DNA from: Candidatus Methanogranum gryphiswaldense
GTDB taxonomy: Archaea > Thermoplasmatota > Thermoplasmata > Methanomassiliicoccales > Methanomethylophilaceae
DNA length: 64,000 nucleotides
Assembly: GCA_019262145.1 (NCBI GenBank)
Contig: CP076745.1
Coordinates: forward strand, 369,093-433,092
Direction: 5' to 3'
In this document: piece by piece, positions 7,798 through 46,527 of the stretch
Numbering within the stretch: position 1 is the first letter of the stretch
Layout of the letters: every line of letters begins with the position of its first letter
Translations under genes and position numbers: made by a program
Notes under the pieces: generated by a model
Seen by the model: the letters and a program-made list of their open reading frames with translations, nothing else
The model's database searches: none
Told to the model about the DNA's origin: nothing

Positions 7798-9126
7798 ATG
7801 CCAAAATACAAGGACGTAATCGATCTGTACGACGACTACGGGAAACGCATTGCAAAAGGCGTACCGTTGGAATCTATCAGTCCATTGCGCAACAACGCGA
7901 TCAAGAAGATTGCATCTCTCACCAAGAGGACCATAGCAGTCAACCTTGCTGGAATTGAGAAAGCTCTCAAGACCGGTAACATGGCTGAAGCAATGATCAG
8001 AGGTAAAGAGATCGATGTTGAATTGGTCAAGAATGCAACTAAGATTGCAAATGCAATAAAACTCATGGTTCAGGTAACTGAGAACGACGGCACAGTTGTC
8101 ACTGTTAAAGGAGACGGAAAGAGCCTAGTTGTCATTGTACCTGAGATGAGGGCTGAAGCCGGTGTCGAGTACATCAACGGATTCACAACTGTCGCAGCCG
8201 TGACCACACAGGTGATCATTGATATGTTCAAGGTCCCAATGTACAAGGCTAACATGGTCAAGGGTGCCGTTTGGGGAAGATATCCTCAGACAGTAGGATT
8301 TGATGGTGCAAACGTCAAATGTATCCTTGAGGTCCCTCAGAACAATGAAGGAGCAGGTTTCGCACTTAGGAACATCATGGCAAACCACGTCGTTGCATTG
8401 GTCAACAGGAACGCAATGCAGGGATCTGCACTTTCATCGATATTCGAGACATGTGCAGCATTCGAGATGGGAGACGCAATCGGTCCATTCGAGAGAGGAC
8501 ACCTCCTCACACTCGCATATCAGGGACTCAACGCCAACAACATCCTCTACTCTATAGTCAAGAAGAACGGAAAGACCGGAACAGTCGGTACTGTTGTTGA
8601 GTCACTGGTCGGAAAGGCAATAGAGGATGGAGTTATCCGCGTAAAAGAGGAACTCCCATCTGGATACAAGATCTACACAACAGACGATCTTCCACTTTGG
8701 AACGCATATGCCGCAGTCGGACAGACCGCAGCAGTCATGGTCAACGTCGGAGCAGCAAGGGCAGCACAGGGTGTACCTGGAACAGTCCTTTACTACAACG
8801 ATCTGCTTGAGCATGAGACCGGACTCCCTGGTGTCGATTATGGACGCGCAGCAGGAGTCGGTGTCGGTATGTCTTTCTTCTCTCACTCCATTTATGGAGG
8901 AGGAGGACCTGGTCTCTTCCACGGAAACCACGTCGTTACAAGGCACGCAAAGGGAACCCTTATTCCATCAGTCACGGCAGCAAACTGTCTGGACGGCGGA
9001 ACACAGACGTTCTCTGCTGAGGCAACATCCGGACTCTACAAAGAAGTGTTCGGTGACATGAAAGAATTCCACTCGCCTATGCAATTCGTAGGTGCAGAGG
9101 CAAAGAAGATTGCAAAGAAGGTCTGA
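7798..9126 (+). CDS. mcrB: Methyl-coenzyme M reductase subunit beta
   Basis: Beta subunit of the (alpha beta gamma)2 enzyme that makes methane and the CoM-CoB heterodisulfide from methyl-CoM and coenzyme B. The 442 residues match the family length. The opening [16 protein letters not shown], the [19 protein letters not shown] stretch and the [20 protein letters not shown] motif lining the coenzyme channel are all typical. First gene of the operon, with strong ribosome binding and the smooth codon use of a very highly expressed gene. The next gene, mcrD, starts 4 bases after the stop. Confidence 0.98.
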
Positions 9127-14311: not shown

Positions 14312-14635
14312 TCACTCGATGGTTATCGTCACATTCTTCTTCAGACCGAGTCCTCCGGCAACTTCCAGTGCTTTTACGATAGCACAAGGCACGGGGCAGG
14401 CGAGGTGCGCGATTGTATCGTTCGCGGCTTTGTAGATCTCGGAATCAAGGTAATGGCTTCCGACCTCGCTATATGGTGAGATCGGCGGAAGTTTCTCTGC
14501 CAATTTCTTGACGCTCTTGCAGTCGCTCTGTATATCGAATGTCACATTCATATCGTCGTCCATTTTGGCGACAATAACGGTCTTCATCTTACAGACCCCG
14601 GGGTCCACTGTTACTTTGCATGTTCCATCCATCAT
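14312..14635 (-). CDS. Small Cys-containing protein, paralogue of the product at 40167
   Basis: A 107-residue protein that aligns over its length with the product of 40167-40505. Shared points are an N-terminal VCK/TCN cysteine, the SDC-x-x-V-K core followed by AEKL, and a CPVPC / PCLTP motif. The three shared cysteine positions suggest a metal or Fe-S site. The family may be the one catalogued as DUF6951, but I could not check the name. The ATG overlaps the stop of the upstream DUF4443-like gene (ATGA type), so the two are translationally coupled. Confidence 0.65.
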   Translation of the reverse strand: MMDGTCKVTVDPGVCKMKTVIVAKMDDDMNVTFDIQSDCKSVKKLAEKLPPISPYSEVGSHYLDSEIYKAANDTIAHLACPVPCAIVKALEVAGGLGLKKNVTITIE

Positions 14636-27632: not shown

Positions 27633-28712
27633 ATGAACAATAAACAACTATATGCAATAGTAATCGTGCTTGTAGTGGTGATCGCTGGTGCAGGGGTTGC
27701 CGTTCTAGTAATGAAGGATGACAATAACAACGGAGGTTCGGTGACCGTGACCGATAGTCTTGGCAGGGAAGTAACTGTTGAAGATACAGATTCAATATTC
27801 TGCATAGGTGCGTGTTCGCTTAGGCTGGTATCGTATTTTGATGCTGTTGATGACGTATGTGCTATGGAAACCGAAGGAACCTTTAATTGGAGTACCGGTC
27901 AGACATATTATGTGGTCTATCAGGACTTCTTCGAGTCTCTTCCTGAGAGTGGGACTGACGCTGAAAGTGTCGCTGTGCTCAATCCGTCTGTTGTGATAAC
28001 ATCAACATTAGCTGATGTTTCAGCTGCGGATACTTTCCAAGACAAATGCGGATGCCCCGTATATGTCATAAATGCTGATGTTGAATTTGATGCTGATTAT
28101 TTCTATGAGCAGATAACCTCGTTGGGAGATTTGTTTGGCGAGAAGGCGAGAGCAACTGAATTGAACAGCGGTATCAAAGCAATGATCTCTTCAATAGAGT
28201 CAGCCGTATCAACATCTTCGTCCACAGCATATGCATGTGGAATGTTCTATTACGGTGGGTCTTCTCTGTTAAAGGCATCAGGTAACTATCTGCCATTCGA
28301 CTATTCTGATGTTACTAATGTAATGCCCGGATCCTCCAACAAACAACCCTACACCATAACCCTTGAGACCCTGTGCAGTTATGATCCAGATTATATTTTC
28401 ATAGATGATGTTAATATCGAATCTGTACTTTCAACAATAAGAACTGATATTACTGACAATACAGGTCTCGAAGACGTAAGTGCAATCGAGAATGATAAGA
28501 TATATTCTACTATGATCTACAAATATTATGGAACTAACTGGGACAATCAACTTATCAATTCGTATTTCATTGCGGTCTTAATGGATTCTGACAGTACATG
28601 GACATTTGAAGACATGGCGAATAATGTTCTTGAGTTGTTTTACGGAGACGATGCTGTAACTTATGAAGCTCTTGCTGAGATTCAGGGTGGTTGCGCAAAA
28701 GTAGTACTTTGA
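27633..28712 (+). CDS. Substrate-binding lipoprotein-like component of a FecBCD/BtuFCD-type importer
   Basis: The 359 residues start with an uncleaved or cleaved membrane anchor (LYAIVIVLVVVIAGAGVAVLV), then a periplasmic-binding fold of the TroA/FepB/BtuF class: VTDSLGREVTVEDTDSIFCIGA, SVAVLNPSVVITST, FYEQITSLGDLFGE and LETLCSYDPDYIFIDD. Such proteins bind Fe-siderophore, haem, cobalamin or free metals outside the cell. The ligand cannot be told. It heads a four-gene unit with permease, ATPase and a methyltransferase. The 194-base upstream gap is AT-rich, with a 12-base palindrome AAAGATATCTTT at 27525-27536. Confidence 0.85.
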   Translation: MNNKQLYAIVIVLVVVIAGAGVAVLVMKDDNNNGGSVTVTDSLGREVTVEDTDSIFCIGACSLRLVSYFDAVDDVCAMETEGTFNWSTGQTYYVVYQDFFESLPESGTDAESVAVLNPSVVITSTLADVSAADTFQDKCGCPVYVINADVEFDADYFYEQITSLGDLFGEKARATELNSGIKAMISSIESAVSTSSSTAYACGMFYYGGSSLLKASGNYLPFDYSDVTNVMPGSSNKQPYTITLETLCSYDPDYIFIDDVNIESVLSTIRTDITDNTGLEDVSAIENDKIYSTMIYKYYGTNWDNQLINSYFIAVLMDSDSTWTFEDMANNVLELFYGDDAVTYEALAEIQGGCAKVVL

Positions 28713-28753
28713 GAGTGCTTTAAACATTTTTCAAATTTTTTAATAGGGAGAGG

Positions 28754-29881
28754 TTGCCGATTACAGACAAAGCAAATGATACTGAACATGAGAAGTCCCA
28801 GTTCTCCGATATATATTCCTACGAAGGTACTGATATAGGGCCATCATCAGTTAAATATCAAGGATACGTCAAAAGGAAGCGCTTGGTAATTGGGGTCAGT
28901 ATAGTGATACTGTTGATATGTATCATTTTGGCTGCTTGCAACGGTCCTATGAACATACCTATTTTAGAGGTCATAAAGGACATATTCACATTCAATACAT
29001 CTGGTGATGGACGTATCGTATGGAACATAAGAATGGTCAGGATATTTGCCGCTATACTTGCTGGTGCCGGACTCGCAATATCTGGAGTGGTCATGCAATG
29101 TATCCTTCGTAATCCCTTGGCCTCCCCTTACACATTAGGACTGTCTAGTGCCGCGGCTTTCGGTGCATCCTTCGCGATAATATTTGTAGGTGCTGGCACA
29201 AGCATAACTTCAGCAGTGTCCATTACTAATCCATATGTAACGGTGCTTTGTGCCTTCATAGCGTCAATGATAGCAACGGTAATGATATTGGTGTTGACAA
29301 AGGTAACCCATGTAAGTGCTGAGACAATGGTGTTGGCAGGTGTTGCCATCAGTGCAATATTCTCTGCAGGTCTTTCATTCATGCAGTATATCGCCACGGA
29401 TTCACAACTTGGAAACATAATCACCTGGATGTTTGGGGACCTTGGTAAGGCGACGTGGAGTTACAATACTCTGATATTGTTCGTTCTGACCCCAGTTGTT
29501 CTATACTTTTTCTATAAGAGATGGGACTATAATGCCATGGAATCTGGGGAAGAGAGCGCAAAGGGATTAGGTATACATACCGAAAGGGAAAGGATAATCG
29601 GACTTGTATTAGCTTCCCTTTTGTGTGCGACCATCGTATCTTTCTTTGGCATTATTGCGTTCATAGGTCTTTTGGCGCCGCACATAGCAAGGATGCTTAT
29701 CGGTAGTGACCATAGATATCTGATACCCTTATCAATAGTGATAGGTGCAATAATAATAGTGGTCTCAGATGCCGTAGGTCAGATCATACTTTATCCAAAA
29801 GTTCTGCCTGTGGGTATAATAACCTCGATGTTGGGTGGACCTATGTTCATATATCTGTTGGTCAGGAGGTATAGGCGCTAA
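28754..29881 (+). CDS. FecCD-family ABC transporter permease
   Basis: A 375-residue integral membrane protein with about ten helices and the FecCD signatures VRIFAAILAGAGLAISGVVMQ and RNPLASPYTLGLSSAAAFGAS, plus GLLAPHIARMLIGSDHRYL near the C terminus. A 50-residue hydrophilic N-terminal extension precedes the first helix. Translation appears to start at TTG 28754 after GGGAGAGG; there is no in-frame ATG before the first membrane segment. The stop shares a base with the ATPase start (TAATG). Confidence 0.92.
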   Translation: MPITDKANDTEHEKSQFSDIYSYEGTDIGPSSVKYQGYVKRKRLVIGVSIVILLICIILAACNGPMNIPILEVIKDIFTFNTSGDGRIVWNIRMVRIFAAILAGAGLAISGVVMQCILRNPLASPYTLGLSSAAAFGASFAIIFVGAGTSITSAVSITNPYVTVLCAFIASMIATVMILVLTKVTHVSAETMVLAGVAISAIFSAGLSFMQYIATDSQLGNIITWMFGDLGKATWSYNTLILFVLTPVVLYFFYKRWDYNAMESGEESAKGLGIHTERERIIGLVLASLLCATIVSFFGIIAFIGLLAPHIARMLIGSDHRYLIPLSIVIGAIIIVVSDAVGQIILYPKVLPVGIITSMLGGPMFIYLLVRRYRR

Positions 29882-30633
29882 TGTTCTTCAAGGTGGACGG
29901 GATGGAATTTTCGTATAAGAGTGAGAAAGTTTTGGAAGATATCTCATTCGAGATCGAACGTAAAGAGATGGTTGCATTGCTTGGACCGAACGGCGTTGGA
30001 AAGACAACTTTGATGAAATGTATCAATCGGATATTGAAGCCGTCCTGCGGGTCAGTTCTATTGGAAGGTTTGGATCTTACCGATACGGATAGACGTACAA
30101 TATCAAGGAATGTTGGTTATGTCTCTCAGAGAGGCGAAACATCAAGACTTACTGTATTCGATTCGATACTTCTTGGAAGAAGACCTCATATTGAATGGGA
30201 TGCGACTGAAAAGGACATATCCATAACCAGCAGAGTGATACATTTGATGGAACTCGATCATTTATCTCTAAAATATGTGGACGAGATCAGTGGCGGGGAG
30301 TATCAATTGGTACAGATCGCACGTGCAATAGTTCAACAGCCACGTGTGATATTATTGGATGAACCGACGAGCAATCTTGATCTTTCCAATCAGCATATGA
30401 TAATGCACATGGTGTCAAATCTAGTCTCATGTAATGACATGGCCGCGGTCATGACGATACACGATCTCAATCTAGCGATAAGACATTCTGATAAATTCAT
30501 TTTAATGAAAGATGGACGTATATTCGCTGCTGGTGATAAAGGAATAATCACGCCCGAGAATATCAAGAGAGTTTACAATATTGATGCTTACGTAGATGAG
30601 ATACGGGGGTATCCGAGGGTAATGCCTATTTGA
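29881..30633 (+). CDS. FecE/BtuD-type ABC transporter ATPase
   Basis: A 250-residue ATPase with Walker A GPNGVGKTT, Q-loop YVSQRGE, signature ISGGEYQLVQIARAIVQQP, Walker B VILLDEPTSNLD and switch His in MTIHDLNLAIRH. It completes the importer with the two preceding genes. The ATG overlaps the permease stop by one base. Confidence 0.94.
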   Translation: MFFKVDGMEFSYKSEKVLEDISFEIERKEMVALLGPNGVGKTTLMKCINRILKPSCGSVLLEGLDLTDTDRRTISRNVGYVSQRGETSRLTVFDSILLGRRPHIEWDATEKDISITSRVIHLMELDHLSLKYVDEISGGEYQLVQIARAIVQQPRVILLDEPTSNLDLSNQHMIMHMVSNLVSCNDMAAVMTIHDLNLAIRHSDKFILMKDGRIFAAGDKGIITPENIKRVYNIDAYVDEIRGYPRVMPI

Positions 30634-33466: not shown

Positions 33467-33789
33467 TTCAATCCTTCCTCTTATTGTCCGGAATAATCCC
33501 ATTAAATGGGACCTTTGATTCTGGTTTCAACAACATCGGTCAATGTGAGTTCATATAAAAATATATTGACGACTCAACTTAATCTTGATTTTACTTATCA
33601 TCTAATTAAAGATTGTTATGAGTTGGGTACTTTAACAAATAAGAAGAGTATGAAAATATTCGATTAAAAACAGTTGCTTGCAGTTATTCTTGTAAATTAT
33701 TTCCGTTCTTTCACTATTTGATACATGATTTTTAAGTTTGCCAGTTATAAAAATAATTTATGATTTGCGATTGTATTTTTAATTCATAC
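33467..33789. promoter_or_regulatory. Divergent promoter region of the exporter operon and sensor gene, with TTGA-N4-TCAA repeats
   Basis: For the minus-strand exporter, the AT-rich 33553-33565 is a TATA candidate. Just upstream of it lie TTGACGACTCAA (33566-33577) and an overlapping TCAA-N7-TTGA (33574-33588). These half sites are suitable for a dimeric MarR or TetR repressor. For the plus-strand sensor gene the TATA box TTATAAAAATAA is at about 33744-33755. The rest is AT-rich and holds no gene. Confidence 0.45.
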
Positions 33790-35709
33790 ATGATACCATA
33801 CGGTATGTACGGAGTGTTGTTGATCTCGTCAGATGAGGTCCTGTTACAACAGGCTCGGAGATTCATCACGAATATCAACGATAGTATGGATGTACACATT
33901 TTAAGCGATCCTGCTGGTCTGAATGCTATTTTGAAATCCGAATTGCATTTGGATGTTATCGTATGCGATCATGATCCACCTAATGTCAATGCCATTTCGA
34001 TTTTCAATGAAATGAGTCGTATGAACGATCTTCGCCCCTTCATTATCATGACAAAAAAGGCTGACGGTAATGTGGCCATTAAGGCATTTGAATTGAAAAT
34101 GGATTATTATGTCAGTCGTGAAAATGTAATGAATTTCTACATGGATCTATCGTCAAAGATCATTCTGTGTGCGGAAAAGGTCAAAATAGAGGCATATAGG
34201 CAGCTTAGCGAGAGAAGAATGAATGCTTTGCTTTCGATGGCTACAATGCACGATAAGGAATTCGGTGAGATACTCAATTATGCTTTGGAATCCAGTGTCA
34301 AATTGACCAACAGTACGATCGGTTACATTGCAATGTATGAAGAGGATACCAAGAAACTCAAGATGGGTTCCTGGTCATTGGGTGGACCTGAGAAATGTAA
34401 GATGAAGAATAGGCAGATTACATACGATTTTGATTCTACGGGTGTTTGGGGAGAGCCAATACGTCAAAAAAAGGCAATAATCATTAATGATTATTCCAGT
34501 GACCCCAGATGTCATGAGAACGAATTGCCAGCGGGTCATGTAGAATTGAAAAGATTGTTAATGATACCCATATTCCATAATGGGCAGATCCTTGCTACAG
34601 CAGGTGTTGGAAACAAGTCTTTGGAATACACTGAAGACGATACCATACAATTCACTCTTTTTATGGAGGGTCTAATTTCCATCTATCACGAAAGAATGCT
34701 GGAAGAAGAAAATGTAAGAAGTGAACGTAATCTAAGGGAAGTCATGCTCAACGCACCCGTAGGCATAATGATCGTTGATAATGACCTCTCAATTTTAGAG
34801 AATAACGAATATGCAAGGTCACTTTTGACATCTCATTCTTTGTGTCTGTCCAAGGAGCCATTGAAGGCTTTTTCTAACGATCTTTCACGTATGATCTCAT
34901 CTGATATAGACGAAGTACGTGAGTCAGGGGAGCCAAGGGAATTTCGGCATTCTGTAGACAATAATGGCGTAGATGTGGTTTTTAAGATCAATGTAGCTAA
35001 AACAGTTGGAAAAAAGGATGAGATCACAGGGTTCATAATAATAATTGACGATATAACTGAAATCGCTCATGCTGATAAGGTGTTGCGTCAGACAATGGAA
35101 AGGATAAATGTTCTAGATTCTTTGATGAATGAGGATATAAGGAAATCATTGAAAGATCTAAGATTCGATGCAGATGGTATTTCAAATTCTTTAGAAAAAG
35201 AGAGCATATTGGACAGTATAGGAGCTTTGGATAATATCATGAAGTTCGTCCAGGAATACCACGATGTAGGTCTTGTCGATCCACAATGGCAAAGTTTGGA
35301 CGACATAATAGACATTGCAGTCAAATCCAATCATCTAGAACCAAATTTTATGGATCGTAATGTAAAAGGTGCAAAGATACTTGCCGATCCAGCATTTTAT
35401 AATGTTTTTTCCAATCTTGTGATGTATTCTTTGATACAGGGTGTTCGTGTCACCAAATGCTCAATAAAATGTAGGATCGACAATGGAAGTCTGGTCATAG
35501 TTTATTCGGATGATGGTGTCGGCATACCATATGATCAGAAAGCATCATTTGTTTCCGGAGCCTCCATGGAGTACGGGAGGGGAGCATATCTGGCGTTCAA
35601 TATTCTGAGAGCCTCAGGATTCCGTTCTAAAGAAGTGGGAGTTCCAGGTAGAGGAATGATAATCGAGATAACAGTGCCATCATCCAATTATTCAATCAAT
35701 TGGGAATGA
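33790..35709 (+). CDS. Receiver-GAF-PAS sensor with a kinase-like ATPase domain lacking the phospho-acceptor His
   Basis: About 639 residues. Order: receiver-like domain with VIVCDHDPP holding the acceptor Asp (about 5-120), GAF (about 145-320), PAS (NAPVGIMIVDNDLSILENNEYA), a coiled dimerisation helix pair, and a HATPase_c domain (G1 box SDDGVGIP, G2 box GRGAYLAFNI). In archaeal kinases the dimerisation helix reads like LLSSITRHDILNQ; here it is VLDSLMNEDIRKS, with Glu where the His should be, and the N box SNLVMYS lacks the second Asn. A non-phosphorylating sensor or scaffold is inferred. ATG 33760 lies before the expected transcription start; ATG 33790 or 33805 is likely. Confidence 0.75.
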   Translation: MIPYGMYGVLLISSDEVLLQQARRFITNINDSMDVHILSDPAGLNAILKSELHLDVIVCDHDPPNVNAISIFNEMSRMNDLRPFIIMTKKADGNVAIKAFELKMDYYVSRENVMNFYMDLSSKIILCAEKVKIEAYRQLSERRMNALLSMATMHDKEFGEILNYALESSVKLTNSTIGYIAMYEEDTKKLKMGSWSLGGPEKCKMKNRQITYDFDSTGVWGEPIRQKKAIIINDYSSDPRCHENELPAGHVELKRLLMIPIFHNGQILATAGVGNKSLEYTEDDTIQFTLFMEGLISIYHERMLEEENVRSERNLREVMLNAPVGIMIVDNDLSILENNEYARSLLTSHSLCLSKEPLKAFSNDLSRMISSDIDEVRESGEPREFRHSVDNNGVDVVFKINVAKTVGKKDEITGFIIIIDDITEIAHADKVLRQTMERINVLDSLMNEDIRKSLKDLRFDADGISNSLEKESILDSIGALDNIMKFVQEYHDVGLVDPQWQSLDDIIDIAVKSNHLEPNFMDRNVKGAKILADPAFYNVFSNLVMYSLIQGVRVTKCSIKCRIDNGSLVIVYSDDGVGIPYDQKASFVSGASMEYGRGAYLAFNILRASGFRSKEVGVPGRGMIIEITVPSSNYSINWE

Positions 35710-35711
35710 TC

Positions 35712-37694
35712 TCAGATCATCTGTTGAGGTTTTCCTGTAGCCGTTACAGATATGAGTATGTCGAGTATTGTCTTGGTCCCCTCGATATCATATGTTCTTT
35801 CTTTGACATCAAAAGATACATCTGTGGAGTAGGCACCGGCCTGTTTTGCCGTGGTATCGGCAAATTTTCCACCTTCTATCCTTGCGTATTCCATTCCTTT
35901 TTGTATCGTATCGAAATTCATTTTTCCGAGTTTTGAAAATACGGTACAAGGTCCGGAATAATCAGAACATGTGCCCTCTGGTTCGATCAGGATATCGATC
36001 GATTCTACGATGCATCCAGATATTGCACCAATCGCATTTCCCACCATCGAGTCGTGAGGTTCAATGAATCTCGTATTCAGTCTTTTTGCCACATTAGGAA
36101 GCCAAGCGCACACTGGTGCACCTATTCCGATTATTGGTTTGTTCAGTGTGATGGTGCAATCATAATCCCGTCCAGGGTTTCCAGTGATGACCTTATTGAT
36201 AATGCTCTCGCAAATGTCACAGGATTTGGAATTGGAAGTTTCATCGAATATGACCTTCATAAGGATTTCACGAGTTATCTTCTCATAAACCATGGTCCTT
36301 ATTTTCTTAATGAACTCTTCTTTAGTGGTTCCCGTCCTCCTGCACATATATTCCATTCCTAATTCGGAAGCTTTGGCGTTATATTGTACATAACTTCCTT
36401 CAGCATGGAGGATATCTGTCGGTGTCAAACCGATCCTTTGTATCAGACCGTGTTCTTCCATTTTGGTTATATTGAAATTCAGGGGATGTACATTTAAGAT
36501 CGAAGCTGCCCGGTTCAAAGTAAGCGGACGCTGTTTGATCAGACCAAGGAATTCACGATCTATCTGTGAAAGTATCTCGGTCGAAAGTGGTTTCGATCCT
36601 GTAAAAAATTCTATGTTCGAAATGACATTTCTGTCATCAAAGGCTCTGTGATTGGTCACTGGTTGTTTGATCGTCTCTTCAAGATCACCGATTATCTCTG
36701 GATGTTCATATGCTGCTATGCAGAGAGGTACAACACGTTGTGGTTTAAGGCAGACCTCATTCCCATTAAGGAAGATGCGGCTGTCCCCTCCAATACCAGA
36801 TGTAGAGATCTCGGCTGCAAGGACATGGGTCCTATGACCGCCGATGGTAGCTCCACAAGAATTGATGCTGGGAAAACCATTCCTAAGTATGCCTATATCG
36901 GTCGTTGTACCGCCCATATCCACAACCACTGCATCTTTGATCCCGGTAAGCACCTTTGCACCGGTAAGGCTTGCAGCAGGACCGCACAGTATGGTCTCGA
37001 CCGGGCGTTCCTCTGCCATTTTAACGTTCATGATGGAACCGTCTCCTTTCACGATCATTATCGGTGCGTGTATCTCGTGGCTGTCCATCACTTTGCTTAC
37101 AGATCCAATGAGGTCTTTTATTACGGGTATCAGCCTTGCATTCATTATTGCGGTCACGGTCCTTTCATTGAATCCAAGGCTGGACGATAACTGATATCCG
37201 CAAACTATGGGTTTGTCAATGGTCATCTTGACCAGTTTTTCAACGTCAATCTCGTGTTCAGGATTTCTGACGCTCATATAGCCTGTTATCGCAATACAAT
37301 CGATCTTGTCCTTTACATTATTTAGAAATCTTTTTATCGAATCTATATCAAGTTCTTCTGTTATTTCGCCGTTCAGATCGTGACGTCCGCTGACTTTGAT
37401 ATATTCGTCCACTCTGACCGAATTGTTGTATTCTCTTCCGATACATATCAGGCCGACTCTGCATCCTTTTCCTTCGACCACCGAATTTGTTGCAAGAGTG
37501 GATGATAAAGAAACGATTGAGATGTTAGATAGCAACTCTTGATCGAAATTTTTAATTGCATTCTCGATCCCTATGACAAGGTTCTCTTTTGTTGTGAGTG
37601 CCTTTGCCTTTTGAAGAACCGTGCCGTTTTTCATATCGAGGATCACGGCATCTGTGTACGTTCCTCCAGTGTCGAATCCTAGACCAATATACAT
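35712..37694 (-). CDS. HyuA-like (hydantoinase/oxoprolinase family) ASKHA ATPase
   Basis: A 660-residue protein with the hydantoinase/oxoprolinase A fold: GLGFDTGGTYTDAVILD (phosphate 1) at the N terminus, LSSTLATNSVVEGKG, AVVVDMGGTTTDIGILRNG (phosphate 2) and ISTSGIGGDSRIFLNG. No HyuB partner gene is nearby, so a plain oxoprolinase role is unlikely. It follows a zinc-ribbon gene and a corrinoid methyltransferase pair, which suggests an ATP-dependent activator of the corrinoid protein. ATG 37694 follows AGGTGATCT. Ends 2 bases from the convergent sensor gene. Confidence 0.85.
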   Translation of the reverse strand: MYIGLGFDTGGTYTDAVILDMKNGTVLQKAKALTTKENLVIGIENAIKNFDQELLSNISIVSLSSTLATNSVVEGKGCRVGLICIGREYNNSVRVDEYIKVSGRHDLNGEITEELDIDSIKRFLNNVKDKIDCIAITGYMSVRNPEHEIDVEKLVKMTIDKPIVCGYQLSSSLGFNERTVTAIMNARLIPVIKDLIGSVSKVMDSHEIHAPIMIVKGDGSIMNVKMAEERPVETILCGPAASLTGAKVLTGIKDAVVVDMGGTTTDIGILRNGFPSINSCGATIGGHRTHVLAAEISTSGIGGDSRIFLNGNEVCLKPQRVVPLCIAAYEHPEIIGDLEETIKQPVTNHRAFDDRNVISNIEFFTGSKPLSTEILSQIDREFLGLIKQRPLTLNRAASILNVHPLNFNITKMEEHGLIQRIGLTPTDILHAEGSYVQYNAKASELGMEYMCRRTGTTKEEFIKKIRTMVYEKITREILMKVIFDETSNSKSCDICESIINKVITGNPGRDYDCTITLNKPIIGIGAPVCAWLPNVAKRLNTRFIEPHDSMVGNAIGAISGCIVESIDILIEPEGTCSDYSGPCTVFSKLGKMNFDTIQKGMEYARIEGGKFADTTAKQAGAYSTDVSFDVKERTYDIEGTKTILDILISVTATGKPQQMI

Positions 37695-37698
37695 TAGA

Positions 37699-38013
37699 TC
37701 ACCTGTTGTATGTGCGTATGCCGAGGCCATCGTAGTGTTGGTTCACAACTTCACAAATGTGATTTGCGATCATTTTTTGTTGTTCTTTTCCGTGTATCTC
37801 TGGTGTTTCGTTTATGAAAAATTCGTTATCGCATTTCGAGCATCTGACCTTAGGGCACCCTTTCACAGATTCAGAGCATCCTTGACATGCGAAAGTACGT
37901 GCATATACAAGGGAGAATCTAAAACCACATTTTGGGCATTCGAATTTTCTAATAGATGCTGTGGTTTCATAAGAGAACCCTCTACTTCTCATCGATTCAT
38001 AGAAGCCGTTCAT
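37699..38013 (-). CDS. Small zinc-ribbon protein
   Basis: A 104-residue protein with three or four C-x-x-C-type knuckles: FECPKCGFRF, TFACQGCSESVKGCPK and VRCSKCDNEFF. The spacing fits two zinc ribbons or a rubredoxin-like pair. It ends 4 bases before the HyuA-like start and the ribosome site for that gene lies within its end, so the two are co-translated. Function unknown; a zinc or Fe protein partner of the ATPase is possible. Confidence 0.75.
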   Translation of the reverse strand: MNGFYESMRSRGFSYETTASIRKFECPKCGFRFSLVYARTFACQGCSESVKGCPKVRCSKCDNEFFINETPEIHGKEQQKMIANHICEVVNQHYDGLGIRTYNR

Positions 38014-38047
38014 TTGATCATCCTTTATATTTATCTAGTTTGGAGGA

Positions 38048-38108
38048 AGACGGACCTCTATGCTGCAAGAGGAAGACCATTTTGTAACGGTCGCACTTCG
38101 GTCCGTCT
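38048..38108 (-). ncRNA. Predicted three-way-junction RNA element in the leader of the zinc-ribbon/HyuA genes
   Basis: A perfect 9-bp closing stem AGACGGACC / GGTCCGTCT (38048-38056 with 38100-38108) encloses two smaller hairpins: CTCT/AGAG and GAAG-ACC/GGT-CTTC. The whole element is 61 bases and lies 35 bases before the ATG at 38013. On the minus strand, at 38144-38127, a five-codon frame (M-T-L-L-K-stop) follows a strong AAGGAAGGAGTA site just upstream of the element. A riboswitch or attenuator is possible. I do not match it to a known class. Confidence 0.4.
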
Positions 38109-38181
38109 ATGGTAAAAAGTTTAGCGTTATTTTAGAAGGGTCATTACTCCTTCCTTGTAAATTGTTTATTTTAAGTGGTTT

Positions 38182-39270
38182 TTAATTATCCATTCTGCCG
38201 TATTTTTTCGTTGTTTCGACCATTGCGGAGATATTCTCCAATTTGCATGAGATATCTGGTGGCACTTCGCACCCAGATGCAATGCAATATGTGGAATTCA
38301 GTCCGCGCTTGCACAAAGCGGTCTTGACCTCATGGCATAGGTCCCTCGTAGCATTGGTCACTTGTTCTACGGTTCCTCTGATGAAGAGCTGTGGATCAAG
38401 CTGCCCTGCGACAAGACATTTGTCGGCATATCCGTCTTCGATCACTTTTGTCGGAGACGGGGACCCCTCGATAAGTGGATAGTAGGCCATCGAGTAGATC
38501 GAAGGCTTGTATTCTTTTATCTGGGTGTTTAGGTGTGGAAGATCGGCGCAGTTATGTATTGCCATAGCCATTCCGTTTTTTAGGACCAATTTGTTCAGTT
38601 TCTCAGCGTATTTTGCTTCGAATTCCTTGTATTCTTGGTCTCCTAGAACCGAATAGTTTCCCCAAAGGTAATCCCACATCAATGCTTTTATTTCTGTATG
38701 TCCAAGGGCCTCGACGATCTGCGAATCGTATTCGGTCATGGTTTTTAGGGCTTTATGGACCGGAGCAGGGTCAGTGAACATATCCATGAACAGTCTTTCT
38801 GCTCCAACGGTCTGTGATAATGCAAGTAGAGGTCCTTCTACAAATGCGGAGGTTATTACCTTCCCATTCAATCCACTTGCCATCAGTTTTGTACCTTTTA
38901 TCAGAACGTCAGTTCTACCTTTTTTAATGTCAGGTACCTTAAGATTCTCATAATCTTCAGGTCCATTGTTTACATGTTTATCTACGAATGGAGTATTTTG
39001 TTCGTCCATTCTTACATGTGCACCCAGGTCTCCTGCCATGACCGAAAGATCCATCAATCCGACCGCAAAGTCTAATCCGAATCTTTTTTGTCCTTCTACG
39101 AAGGCCTGTGCAAACAGCTTAGGATCACTACACCATTCGCGGTAGGTCAGTTTTCCATCACCTATGAGCTTTCTGCAGACACCGCATGCGATGGGGTAGA
39201 CAGTGAGTCTGTCAACCTTCTCATTGTTGATTGCAGCAGTTGCTCTTTCAACTGGTGTCATTTCTTTCAT
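38182..39270 (-). CDS. UroD-family corrinoid methyltransferase (MtaA/CmuA-like)
   Basis: A 362-residue TIM barrel of the uroporphyrinogen-decarboxylase-like methyltransferases. It opens MTPVERATAAINNEKVDRL, and the zinc-binding His and Cys lie in MAIHNCADLPHL near residue 240 with a third ligand Cys in IASGCEVPPD near 335. The length and motifs differ from the MtaA/MtbA-type protein at 5662, so it is probably the substrate-side or an alternative CoM-side methyltransferase. No in-frame amber codon is seen, so it is not a pyrrolysine enzyme. ATG 39270 overlaps the corrinoid protein stop (ATGA) and follows AAGGAGG. Confidence 0.85.
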   Translation of the reverse strand: MKEMTPVERATAAINNEKVDRLTVYPIACGVCRKLIGDGKLTYREWCSDPKLFAQAFVEGQKRFGLDFAVGLMDLSVMAGDLGAHVRMDEQNTPFVDKHVNNGPEDYENLKVPDIKKGRTDVLIKGTKLMASGLNGKVITSAFVEGPLLALSQTVGAERLFMDMFTDPAPVHKALKTMTEYDSQIVEALGHTEIKALMWDYLWGNYSVLGDQEYKEFEAKYAEKLNKLVLKNGMAMAIHNCADLPHLNTQIKEYKPSIYSMAYYPLIEGSPSPTKVIEDGYADKCLVAGQLDPQLFIRGTVEQVTNATRDLCHEVKTALCKRGLNSTYCIASGCEVPPDISCKLENISAMVETTKKYGRMDN

Positions 39271-39908
39271 CTGAATTCCTCCTTGAGCCAGTTAACGCAA
39301 TTCTGTGCATTTGCATCCCTATGGTCTGCCCCAATATCTTTTGCAAATCCAGGAGATGTTGGTGGACCGCCAATAGTTACGATCACTTTAGAGCGGTAAC
39401 CCGTTTCTTTCAGCACATCGATTGTTTTTTTCATATTCTCCATTGTTGGTGTCATGAGGGTGCTGAGGCACAGACAGTTTATTCCGTCGTTCTCCGCTTT
39501 CTTCACAATTTCTTCAGGAGAAATGTCCTTTCCATAGTCAATCACAATGTATCCGCCTGCGGTGAGCATTGTTCTTACTATGTTCTTTCCGATGTCATGC
39601 ACGTCGCCTTCAACGACTGCGGCTGCACATTTTTTTGCATTTTCAAGTTTGGATTTTGGGATTGCAGGTAGAAGGATGTCCAATCCTGCGTACATGCAAC
39701 GTGCAGAGACCAATACCTGTGGGAGATAGACCTTATGTTCCGCATAGTTCTCTCCAACAACACTCATTCCCTTTACAAGGCCCTCGTTAATTGCTTCTAT
39801 AGGGTCCATTCCGGTACTGAGTGCTTCTTGTGCGGCACTTTTTGCAACCTCGATCTTGTAATTTATAACCGAGTCGCTTAATTTTTTCAGTATTTCCTCC
39901 TTCGACAT
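39267..39908 (-). CDS. Corrinoid (cobalamin-binding) methyl-transfer protein
   Basis: A 213-residue MtaC/MtbC-like protein: an N-terminal four-helix cap (EALSTGMDPIEAINEGLVKGMSVVGENYAEHKVYLPQVLVSA) and a Rossmann-like B12 domain with the base-off motif GDVHDIGKNIV (Asp-x-His) and later TIGGPPTSPGFAKDIGAD. It carries the methyl group on cobalt between two methyltransferases. ATG 39908 follows CGGAGTGATAAA. Translationally coupled to the UroD-type methyltransferase, which must be its partner. The methyl donor substrate is not known. Confidence 0.93.
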   Translation of the reverse strand: MSKEEILKKLSDSVINYKIEVAKSAAQEALSTGMDPIEAINEGLVKGMSVVGENYAEHKVYLPQVLVSARCMYAGLDILLPAIPKSKLENAKKCAAAVVEGDVHDIGKNIVRTMLTAGGYIVIDYGKDISPEEIVKKAENDGINCLCLSTLMTPTMENMKKTIDVLKETGYRSKVIVTIGGPPTSPGFAKDIGADHRDANAQNCVNWLKEEFR

Positions 39909-40166: not shown

Positions 40167-40505
40167 ATGAGTTCTACTGTCATAGCAAAAATGAACACTT
40201 GTAATAAAGTCAATAAAGTGACGGCTAAGATGCAGGAGGATGGGACGATTCAGATCGAGATAGTTTCAGATTGCCCCAATGTCAAGGCCTATGCAGAAAA
40301 ATTAAAAACAATAACGATGGAAGATGCAACAAATTATAATGGAAGTAAAGTCGTGGATCCGGATATAAGGGCGACATTATCGGTGCCATGTCTTACGCCG
40401 ATTGCGGTCTTTGATGCGGCATGGATGGAATTAGGAATGCTATCCAAATCTCGTGCTAAAAATGTTAAAACCAATGACATATCGTTCGAGAATTGTAACG
40501 AATGA
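40167..40505 (+). CDS. Small Cys-containing protein, paralogue of the product at 14312
   Basis: A 112-residue protein with the same layout as the product of 14312-14635: MNTCNKVNKVTAKM at the start, SDCPNVKAYAEKLKTI in the middle and a VPCLTPIAVFDAAWMELG helix near the end. The three cysteine positions are shared. Function unknown; possible DUF6951 family (name not verified). It is divergent from a corrinoid methyl-transfer gene pair, while its paralogue lies in the methanogenesis island. Confidence 0.7.
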   Translation: MSSTVIAKMNTCNKVNKVTAKMQEDGTIQIEIVSDCPNVKAYAEKLKTITMEDATNYNGSKVVDPDIRATLSVPCLTPIAVFDAAWMELGMLSKSRAKNVKTNDISFENCNE

Positions 40506-45491: not shown

Positions 45492-45678
45492 CTATTCCGC
45501 TTATCTTATGGTTTTGATTGTTACATCCTACTGTTGTAGTTTTGTCATGCTTAAAATCTCATGTCCAAAGTAAATTGATGTTTTTATCGATATATCCTAT
45601 CGATTCATTCTCCAATCAAGATACATATCAATTGAATAGTAACTATCTTTTATATAGCGATATGACATCTTGTTTCCA

Positions 45679-46527
45679 ATGACTTCTGGTACGCTTGGAA
45701 TAATTGCCTGTCCCATGCTCGAGAACGAACTTGTCCATTCGTTGAAGAAAGATGATGAGACAAAGAATATCTATGTCATCGAGACAGAGTACTGTGGCAG
45801 TCTTAAAGGAAAACTAAGCGTCAGTGGAATTCCATTTGAGCTTCTATCTGAGAAGGAATTCTTTAGCGGAAGATGTGATATCTCCAGCTCGTTGTTCAAC
45901 ATTGTGATCAAGATGAATAATCTTGGATTGCATGCAGAACCAAAGGATCTGAAGACATTTGTAGAAAAACAGATAGAAGAATTCCAGCCACACATTGACG
46001 TTCTAGGCGTCTATTACGGACTGTGTGGAAATTATGGCTGGGACGTTACATCTTGGTGTGAAAGCAAAGGATACAAACCTACTGTTGTTTTCCGTGATGA
46101 AGGTGGACACGTATGCGATGATTGTGTTGGCGTATGTGTGGGTGGCGGGCCAAGATATCTGGATCTTGAAAAAACGTATACCGGTATGCTGTATGTAACA
46201 CCCGCCATTGCTTCTAATTGGAGGGATTTTCTTGCGGCGGGGGACATCATGAAAGGGATAGATTCCATGAACAGGATCGAATCACTCAGAGAGCTTGGAA
46301 TAAGGACTCCAGATGATTACATGAGGTGGATGTTTGAGGTCTGTGGCTATAAGAACATGGTACAGATAGACAACGGTCTATGTGATAGGGATGAGTTCGA
46401 TAAACACATCGATGAGATGTCCAAAAATCTGAATCTGAGTATAATACAGGTGGAATCTGGATGGGCTACCCTCCAGCCTGCAGAGGATCTGTATACGGCC
46501 TGCAAATCAAATCTGGAACATACGTGA
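45679..46527 (+). CDS. DUF1638 family protein
   Basis: A 282-residue DUF1638 protein: LGIIACPMLENELVHSL, a VLGVYYGLCGNYG core with CDDCVGVCVGGGPRYL, then MLYVTPAIASNWRDFLA. The cysteines in YGLCGN and CDDCVGVC suggest a metal or cofactor site. To my knowledge DUF1638 genes often lie near corrinoid methyltransferases; the function is not established. The TATA box TTTATATAG at about 45650-45658 is about 26 bases from ATG 45679, so the mRNA is leaderless. No ribosome site is present. Confidence 0.82.
   Translation: MTSGTLGIIACPMLENELVHSLKKDDETKNIYVIETEYCGSLKGKLSVSGIPFELLSEKEFFSGRCDISSSLFNIVIKMNNLGLHAEPKDLKTFVEKQIEEFQPHIDVLGVYYGLCGNYGWDVTSWCESKGYKPTVVFRDEGGHVCDDCVGVCVGGGPRYLDLEKTYTGMLYVTPAIASNWRDFLAAGDIMKGIDSMNRIESLRELGIRTPDDYMRWMFEVCGYKNMVQIDNGLCDRDEFDKHIDEMSKNLNLSIIQVESGWATLQPAEDLYTACKSNLEHT

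Follow-up and report, generated by a model that had tools for sequence, protein, structure and literature searches.

A conserved archaeal gene cassette pairing a putative split methyl-sulfide methyltransferase with a HyuA-type ATPase

In the genome of Candidatus Methanogranum gryphiswaldense, a single contig of 1,516,968 bases from a methanogen of the order Methanomassiliicoccales, to which the nearest named matches (49% identity) also point, we analysed a stretch of 64,000 nucleotides (CP076745.1, positions 369,093 to 433,092; hereafter the window, in whose numbering positions are given) that contains a cassette for methyl transfer. An earlier note on this DNA had described four minus-strand genes in sequence, coding for a corrinoid (Cor) protein, a methyltransferase (MT) of the UroD type, a zinc-ribbon protein (ZnR) and an ATPase of the hydantoinase A type (HyuA), and all four were found intact at 35712-39908 (Table 1). 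Pfam assigns B12-binding (E-value 3e-21) and B12-binding_2 (2.3e-20) to the corrinoid protein, URO-D (1e-43) to the MT, and Hydant_A_N (7.5e-31) and Hydantoinase_A (4.5e-29) to HyuA. The genes are packed as in an operon, and the start of the MT gene shares four bases with the stop of the corrinoid gene. The listed HyuA start, ATG 37730, would give a 32-base overlap with ZnR; the ATG at 37694 fits the alignment and is the likelier start, which leaves only a few bases between the two genes.

Table 1. Genes of the cassette and its flanks, with positions in the window (aa, amino acids).
Feature	Position	Strand	Details
Corrinoid protein, homologous to the N-terminal part (corrinoid domain) of MtsD/F/H	39267..39908	-	213 aa; B12-binding_2 + B12-binding
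UroD-superfamily methyltransferase (MT), homologous to the C-terminal MtsD/F/H domain	38182..39270	-	362 aa; Pfam URO-D
ZnR, double CxxC zinc protein	37699..38013	-	104 aa; 7 invariant Cys
HyuA-type ASKHA ATPase without HyuB partner	35712..37730	-	Pfam domains; ASKHA motifs invariant
Sensor kinase-like protein	33760..35709	+	Receiver, GAF, PAS, HATPase (Pfam); convergent with HyuA
DUF6951 protein	40167..40505	+	112 aa; Pfam; divergent from cassette; recurrent neighbour

The cassette genes were sought in all reading frames of 61 genomes of relatives. The source genome holds a second complete cassette of identical gene order (genome positions 1,069,462-1,073,307), whose MT is 70% identical to that of the window. 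Altogether 40 MT homologues are spread over 33 of the 61 genomes, and 35 of them have a HyuA gene within 4.8 kb. Among the five MT loci lacking HyuA, four (G030, G011, G055 and G028) are on short fragments or close to where a contig ends, which, judging from the coordinates, would explain the missing gene; the fifth, G060:C34, has no such explanation. Seen from the other side, an MT or corrinoid protein is encoded within 8 kb in 38 of the 47 close HyuA loci, compared with 7% of the source genome lying within 8 kb of a B12-binding gene. By these counts, which come from loci related by descent and are not independent, the linkage of HyuA to corrinoid and methyltransferase genes is far above chance. 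No HyuB was found in the source genome or beside any HyuA locus examined, and only one of the 61 genomes has it, so that a HyuAB hydrolase was rejected. The earlier description of a methyl-transfer cassette without HyuB is thus borne out, and the cassette is conserved: HyuA and ZnR travel with corrinoid genes.

The methyl donor had been called unknown and the cassette undescribed, and on both points the phylogeny leads further. A tree of UroD proteins places the cassette MTs as sisters of a domain that forms the C-terminal part of fused Methanosarcina and Methanolobus proteins of 641-674 aa. We take the fused proteins to be MtsD, MtsF and MtsH, because one reference genome holds exactly three of them, with two HyuA genes in tandem some 10 kb past the mtsF-type copy, in agreement with the three fused proteins MA0859, MA4384 and MA4558 (PMC7374477) and the HyuA-type pair MA4395/MA4396 by mtaCB2 (PMC11619418) published for M. 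acetivorans. The cassette MTs and the UroD domains of MtsD/F/H form one clade with a support of 100/100 and a stem of 1.13 (IQ-TREE, 36 rows). Moreover, the corrinoid protein is 40-41% identical to the corrinoid domain of the fused Mts proteins and falls into the same clade in a FastTree tree (0.94), a wider clade that includes the corrinoid proteins of loci with the order Cor-HyuA-MtaA. The order of the two genes equals the domain order of the fused proteins. A fusion was not found: there are two reading frames in the window, and no MT match of the 61 relatives lies in an open frame that reaches the length of the fused proteins.

The zinc ligands H239, C241 and C334 of the MT are invariant among 30 homologues, and a His-Cys-Cys zinc sphere has been described as a mark of S-methyltransferases (PMC10418091). 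The sister UroD domain, the close corrinoid domain and these ligands point to a methylated sulfur compound as the most likely methyl donor, and to a split Mts enzyme as the most likely identity of the corrinoid/MT pair. Assignment of the MT as MtaA, MtbA or CmuA was rejected, since the NCBIfam cut-offs were missed (41.7 of 400 bits for MtaA, 62.4 of 600 for MtbA, 80.6 of 235.4 for MtaA/CmuA), in accordance with its earlier separation from the MtaA/MtbA type. Homologues of MtsD/F/H have already been noted in Methanomassiliicoccales, where the use of methyl sulfides was inferred from transcripts (PMC10805028); the pair is therefore a split variant of a known enzyme, and the term undescribed no longer fits it. 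Two points weigh against a sulfur donor. Cultured Methanomassiliicoccales are not known for direct growth on methyl sulfides (PMC10805028), and UroD paralogues can switch substrate yet retain their zinc ligands.

The AlphaFold model of HyuA (pLDDT, predicted local distance difference test, 88.6) has its best PDB matches among HyuA-family enzymes, namely N-methylhydantoinase, acetone carboxylase, acetophenone carboxylase and caprolactamase, with an E-value of 6e-29 versus 1.5e-4 for the corrinoid activator 4c1n. The ASKHA motifs are invariant among the homologues. No invariant cysteine that could serve as an iron-sulfur cluster site was found among 63 of them, nor does HyuA contain a RACo domain; beyond its two domains of the hydantoinase A type, Pfam reports just a match to MutL.

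A HyuA gene also accompanies the fused Mts proteins. Wherever the flank of a Methanosarcina locus is long enough (11 loci), it lies directly 3' of mtsD; its distance from mtsH is 5.7 kb. That the Mts pair and its HyuA were inherited as a single unit was rejected, as a clade of the cassette HyuA with the HyuA of mtsD/mtsH fails the approximately unbiased test (p 8e-39). Since the HyuA beside mtsD and mtsH comes from a different lineage, the pairing of HyuA with Mts proteins has recurred. In a genome of the M. acetivorans type (L254, 6351-8303 and 9010-10950), a HyuA-type gene follows directly downstream of the mtsD-type gene.

Further associations extend beyond the Mts enzymes. A second HyuA clade of Methanomassiliicoccales adjoins MtaA and RamA. 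In 8 of the 17 loci of this clade, no more than 8 kb separate RamA from HyuA, and among 89 broader loci the same holds for 10. In anaerobic bacteria HyuA adjoins MttB, corrinoid protein, pterin-binding methyltransferase, DUF1638 and RamA. A Coriobacteriia cluster, MtaA-Cor-UroD-HyuA-RamA-DUF1638 (L139, 5985-13280), parallels the cassette in bacteria. Glycine betaine clusters include a 'HydA' in published maps, and in strain DCMF this protein was strongly more abundant on glycine betaine (PMC9768040). A HyuA without HyuB may be a general companion of corrinoid methyltransferases that has so far escaped recognition. It would differ from RamA, would have been paired with these methyltransferases repeatedly in archaea and bacteria, and would provide an ATP-using service to the corrinoid protein (cofactor loading, release or remodelling), a generalisation that we put forward only tentatively.

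Several observations weigh against a corrinoid-serving role of HyuA. No corrinoid genes were found nearby in 9 of the 47 close HyuA loci and in 5 of the 17 second-clade loci, nor in a whole rhizobial and rhodobacterial HyuA group, so some members of the family appear to do something else. In aerobic rhizobial relatives, the gene keeps its place between those for a P450 and for malate synthase G (L142, L146, L151 and others); given these neighbours, the family is wider than corrinoid systems. Furthermore, the reduction of a glycine betaine corrinoid protein by RamM was tested in vitro (PMC6855144), with HyuA unmentioned in the portion of that text searched.

For ZnR, alignment of 24 homologues places all seven cysteines as invariant. 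Neither Pfam nor NCBIfam gave a match, and the AlphaFold model, of moderate confidence (pLDDT 77.6), found none in the PDB. The 35 best ZnR matches all adjoin an MT match and are the cassette copies of the relatives. A distant paralogue occurs elsewhere at about one per genome, and a match of either kind is present in 60 of the 61 genomes; in the source genome this stand-alone gene lies by a GGGP synthase gene (genome positions 242628-242894; L265 at 8620-8970). In Methanosarcina, no ZnR was found between mtsD and the HyuA gene, and three of the four Methanosarcinaceae genomes searched lack it, though HyuA pairs with mtsD there. In Methanolobus, one cluster (L263, 3570-14562) contains a sensor kinase, RamA, a FilR1-type regulator, a ZnR paralogue, an OYE-type flavoprotein, a corrinoid protein and MtbA.

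What we computed is gene content, linkage, homology, zinc-ligand conservation and fold; from these we infer which substrate and acceptor are used and what HyuA and ZnR do. The UroD protein, through its His-Cys-Cys zinc site, would transfer a methyl group from methanethiol, dimethylsulfide or a similar thioether to Co(I) in the small corrinoid protein. The methyl group would then probably pass to coenzyme M, either via the UroD protein itself, as in MtsA, or via the stand-alone MtaA-type proteins of the genome. Accidental Co(II) would be re-reduced by RamA proteins encoded elsewhere. HyuA would use ATP to act on the corrinoid protein, or on the complex that contains it, in a way other than reduction (loading, release or remodelling), and ZnR may be an adaptor or a metal-site protein. 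For HyuA, our best guess is that it serves the corrinoid protein with the help of ATP. Such a service is likelier than activation of the donor because the systems have different methyl donors but all use a corrinoid protein, and since RamA is also present, HyuA is unlikely to do the reduction itself. Overall, we consider it fairly probable that the cassette is a split enzyme of the MtsD/F/H type with a dedicated HyuA partner that serves the corrinoid protein, while RamA does the reduction.

Other explanations have to be weighed against this one. The earlier note had proposed that HyuA may take the place of RamA, using ATP to reactivate the corrinoid protein by reduction, and that ZnR may be its redox or docking partner. 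Such a role would suit the tight linkage to corrinoid genes, the ASKHA ATPase fold that RamA likewise has and the invariant cysteines of ZnR. A RamA-like gene is indeed missing from the window, as had been noticed, but two RamA-type genes lie elsewhere in the source genome, and in other genomes RamA often shares the HyuA cluster. Together with the lack of an invariant cysteine in HyuA, its far poorer match to 4c1n than to HyuA enzymes and the absence of ZnR from most of the Methanosarcinaceae genomes searched, where HyuA pairs with mtsD, this makes the proposal very doubtful; the observation itself is confirmed and its earlier interpretation is partly supported. HyuA might instead phosphorylate a carbonyl or amide methyl donor, as N-methylhydantoinase and acetone carboxylase do, for demethylation by the UroD protein. 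Its fold and motifs match those of substrate-phosphorylating HyuA proteins, and in some loci (Cor-HyuA-MtaA) the gene is placed like that of a substrate-specific subunit. However, HyuA relatives stand by methyl sulfide, methanol (MA4395/4396 at mtaCB2, PMC11619418) and MttB-type systems, whose donors have no common phosphorylatable group, and the methylthiol system MtsA/MtsB is a two-protein complex for which no kinase is described (PMC7374477). We regard donor phosphorylation as quite unlikely.

It is also conceivable, if unlikely, that the pair is an Mts homologue with another purpose, such as recycling of methyl-coenzyme M to methanethiol, salvage of methionine or selenium, or use of an oxygen donor. 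A reverse role has been proposed for MtsF/CmtA (PMC11619418), and UroD enzymes of mlp clusters have been assigned to methyl-sulfur and selenium metabolism (PMC10418091). On the other hand, the energy metabolism of Methanomassiliicoccales depends on methyl reduction (PMC10805028), and oxygen donors are disfavoured by the His-Cys-Cys ligands.

The surroundings of the cassette also recur. The sensor kinase-like protein is a probable regulator; sensor kinases with GAF and PAS domains are frequent neighbours of the cassette in relatives, and homologues with 34-40% identity across the GAF region lie close to mtsD and mtsH. A DUF6951 gene stands near the cassette in several relatives, with a weak match (16 bits) in one Methanolobus mts locus. 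A second gene of this type occurs in the window at 14312-14635, and the family recurs by loci of corrinoid methyltransferases and HyuA. About 5 kb from the cassette, at 27633-30633, the binding protein, permease and ATPase of a FecCD/BtuC-type ABC importer are encoded, which could serve cobamide or iron uptake.

In relatives, insertions or extra genes of the cassette code for a CobW-type GTPase, a protein of about 160 aa, a short DUF1638 protein and DGC-domain proteins, and CbiO/CbiQ-type transporter genes join it in some. The GTPase and the 160-aa protein, the latter with no Pfam match, lie between MT and ZnR in many relatives (e.g. L081, 6869-8070) and not in the window. Fitness data from mutants connect DUF1638 with a RamA-like protein of the B12-dependent synthesis of methionine (PMC5764234). 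A long DUF1638 protein of 285 aa is encoded in the window at 45670-46527, the sole match to this family in the source genome.

Our data give a likely substrate class to a methyltransferase cassette found in 33 of 61 genomes of a group relevant to gut methane. An ATP-using HyuA helper recurs beside such methyltransferases in many microbes, and the 'hydantoinase' annotation found next to them becomes an answerable question in the genetically tractable Methanosarcina acetivorans, where HyuA follows mtsD.

Among known systems, the hydantoinase, oxoprolinase and acetone carboxylase family of HyuA/HyuB shares fold and ATP motifs with the cassette HyuA, but the genome has no HyuB. The RamA/RACE activators are likewise ASKHA ATPases tied to corrinoid methyltransferases; HyuA differs from them in having neither a RACo domain nor an invariant cysteine, and both often co-occur. 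The glycine betaine clusters with 'HydA' (strain DCMF and others) also place a HyuA-type protein beside a corrinoid protein and a methyltransferase, although that methyltransferase is of the MttB type and the acceptor is tetrahydrofolate. In MtsA/MtsB of M. barkeri the UroD and corrinoid proteins are separate as in the cassette, and S-methyl chemistry is expected in both; MtsA, however, is grouped with MtaA-type enzymes in the literature (PMC10418091). From MtsD/MtsF/MtsH (CmtA) of M. acetivorans the cassette differs in consisting of two proteins in place of one fused chain, in the presence of ZnR and in a HyuA of another sublineage. With these enzymes, however, it shares the sister UroD domain (100/100), a related corrinoid domain in the same order, the His-Cys-Cys site, a sensor-kinase neighbour and, as after mtsD, the HyuA gene.

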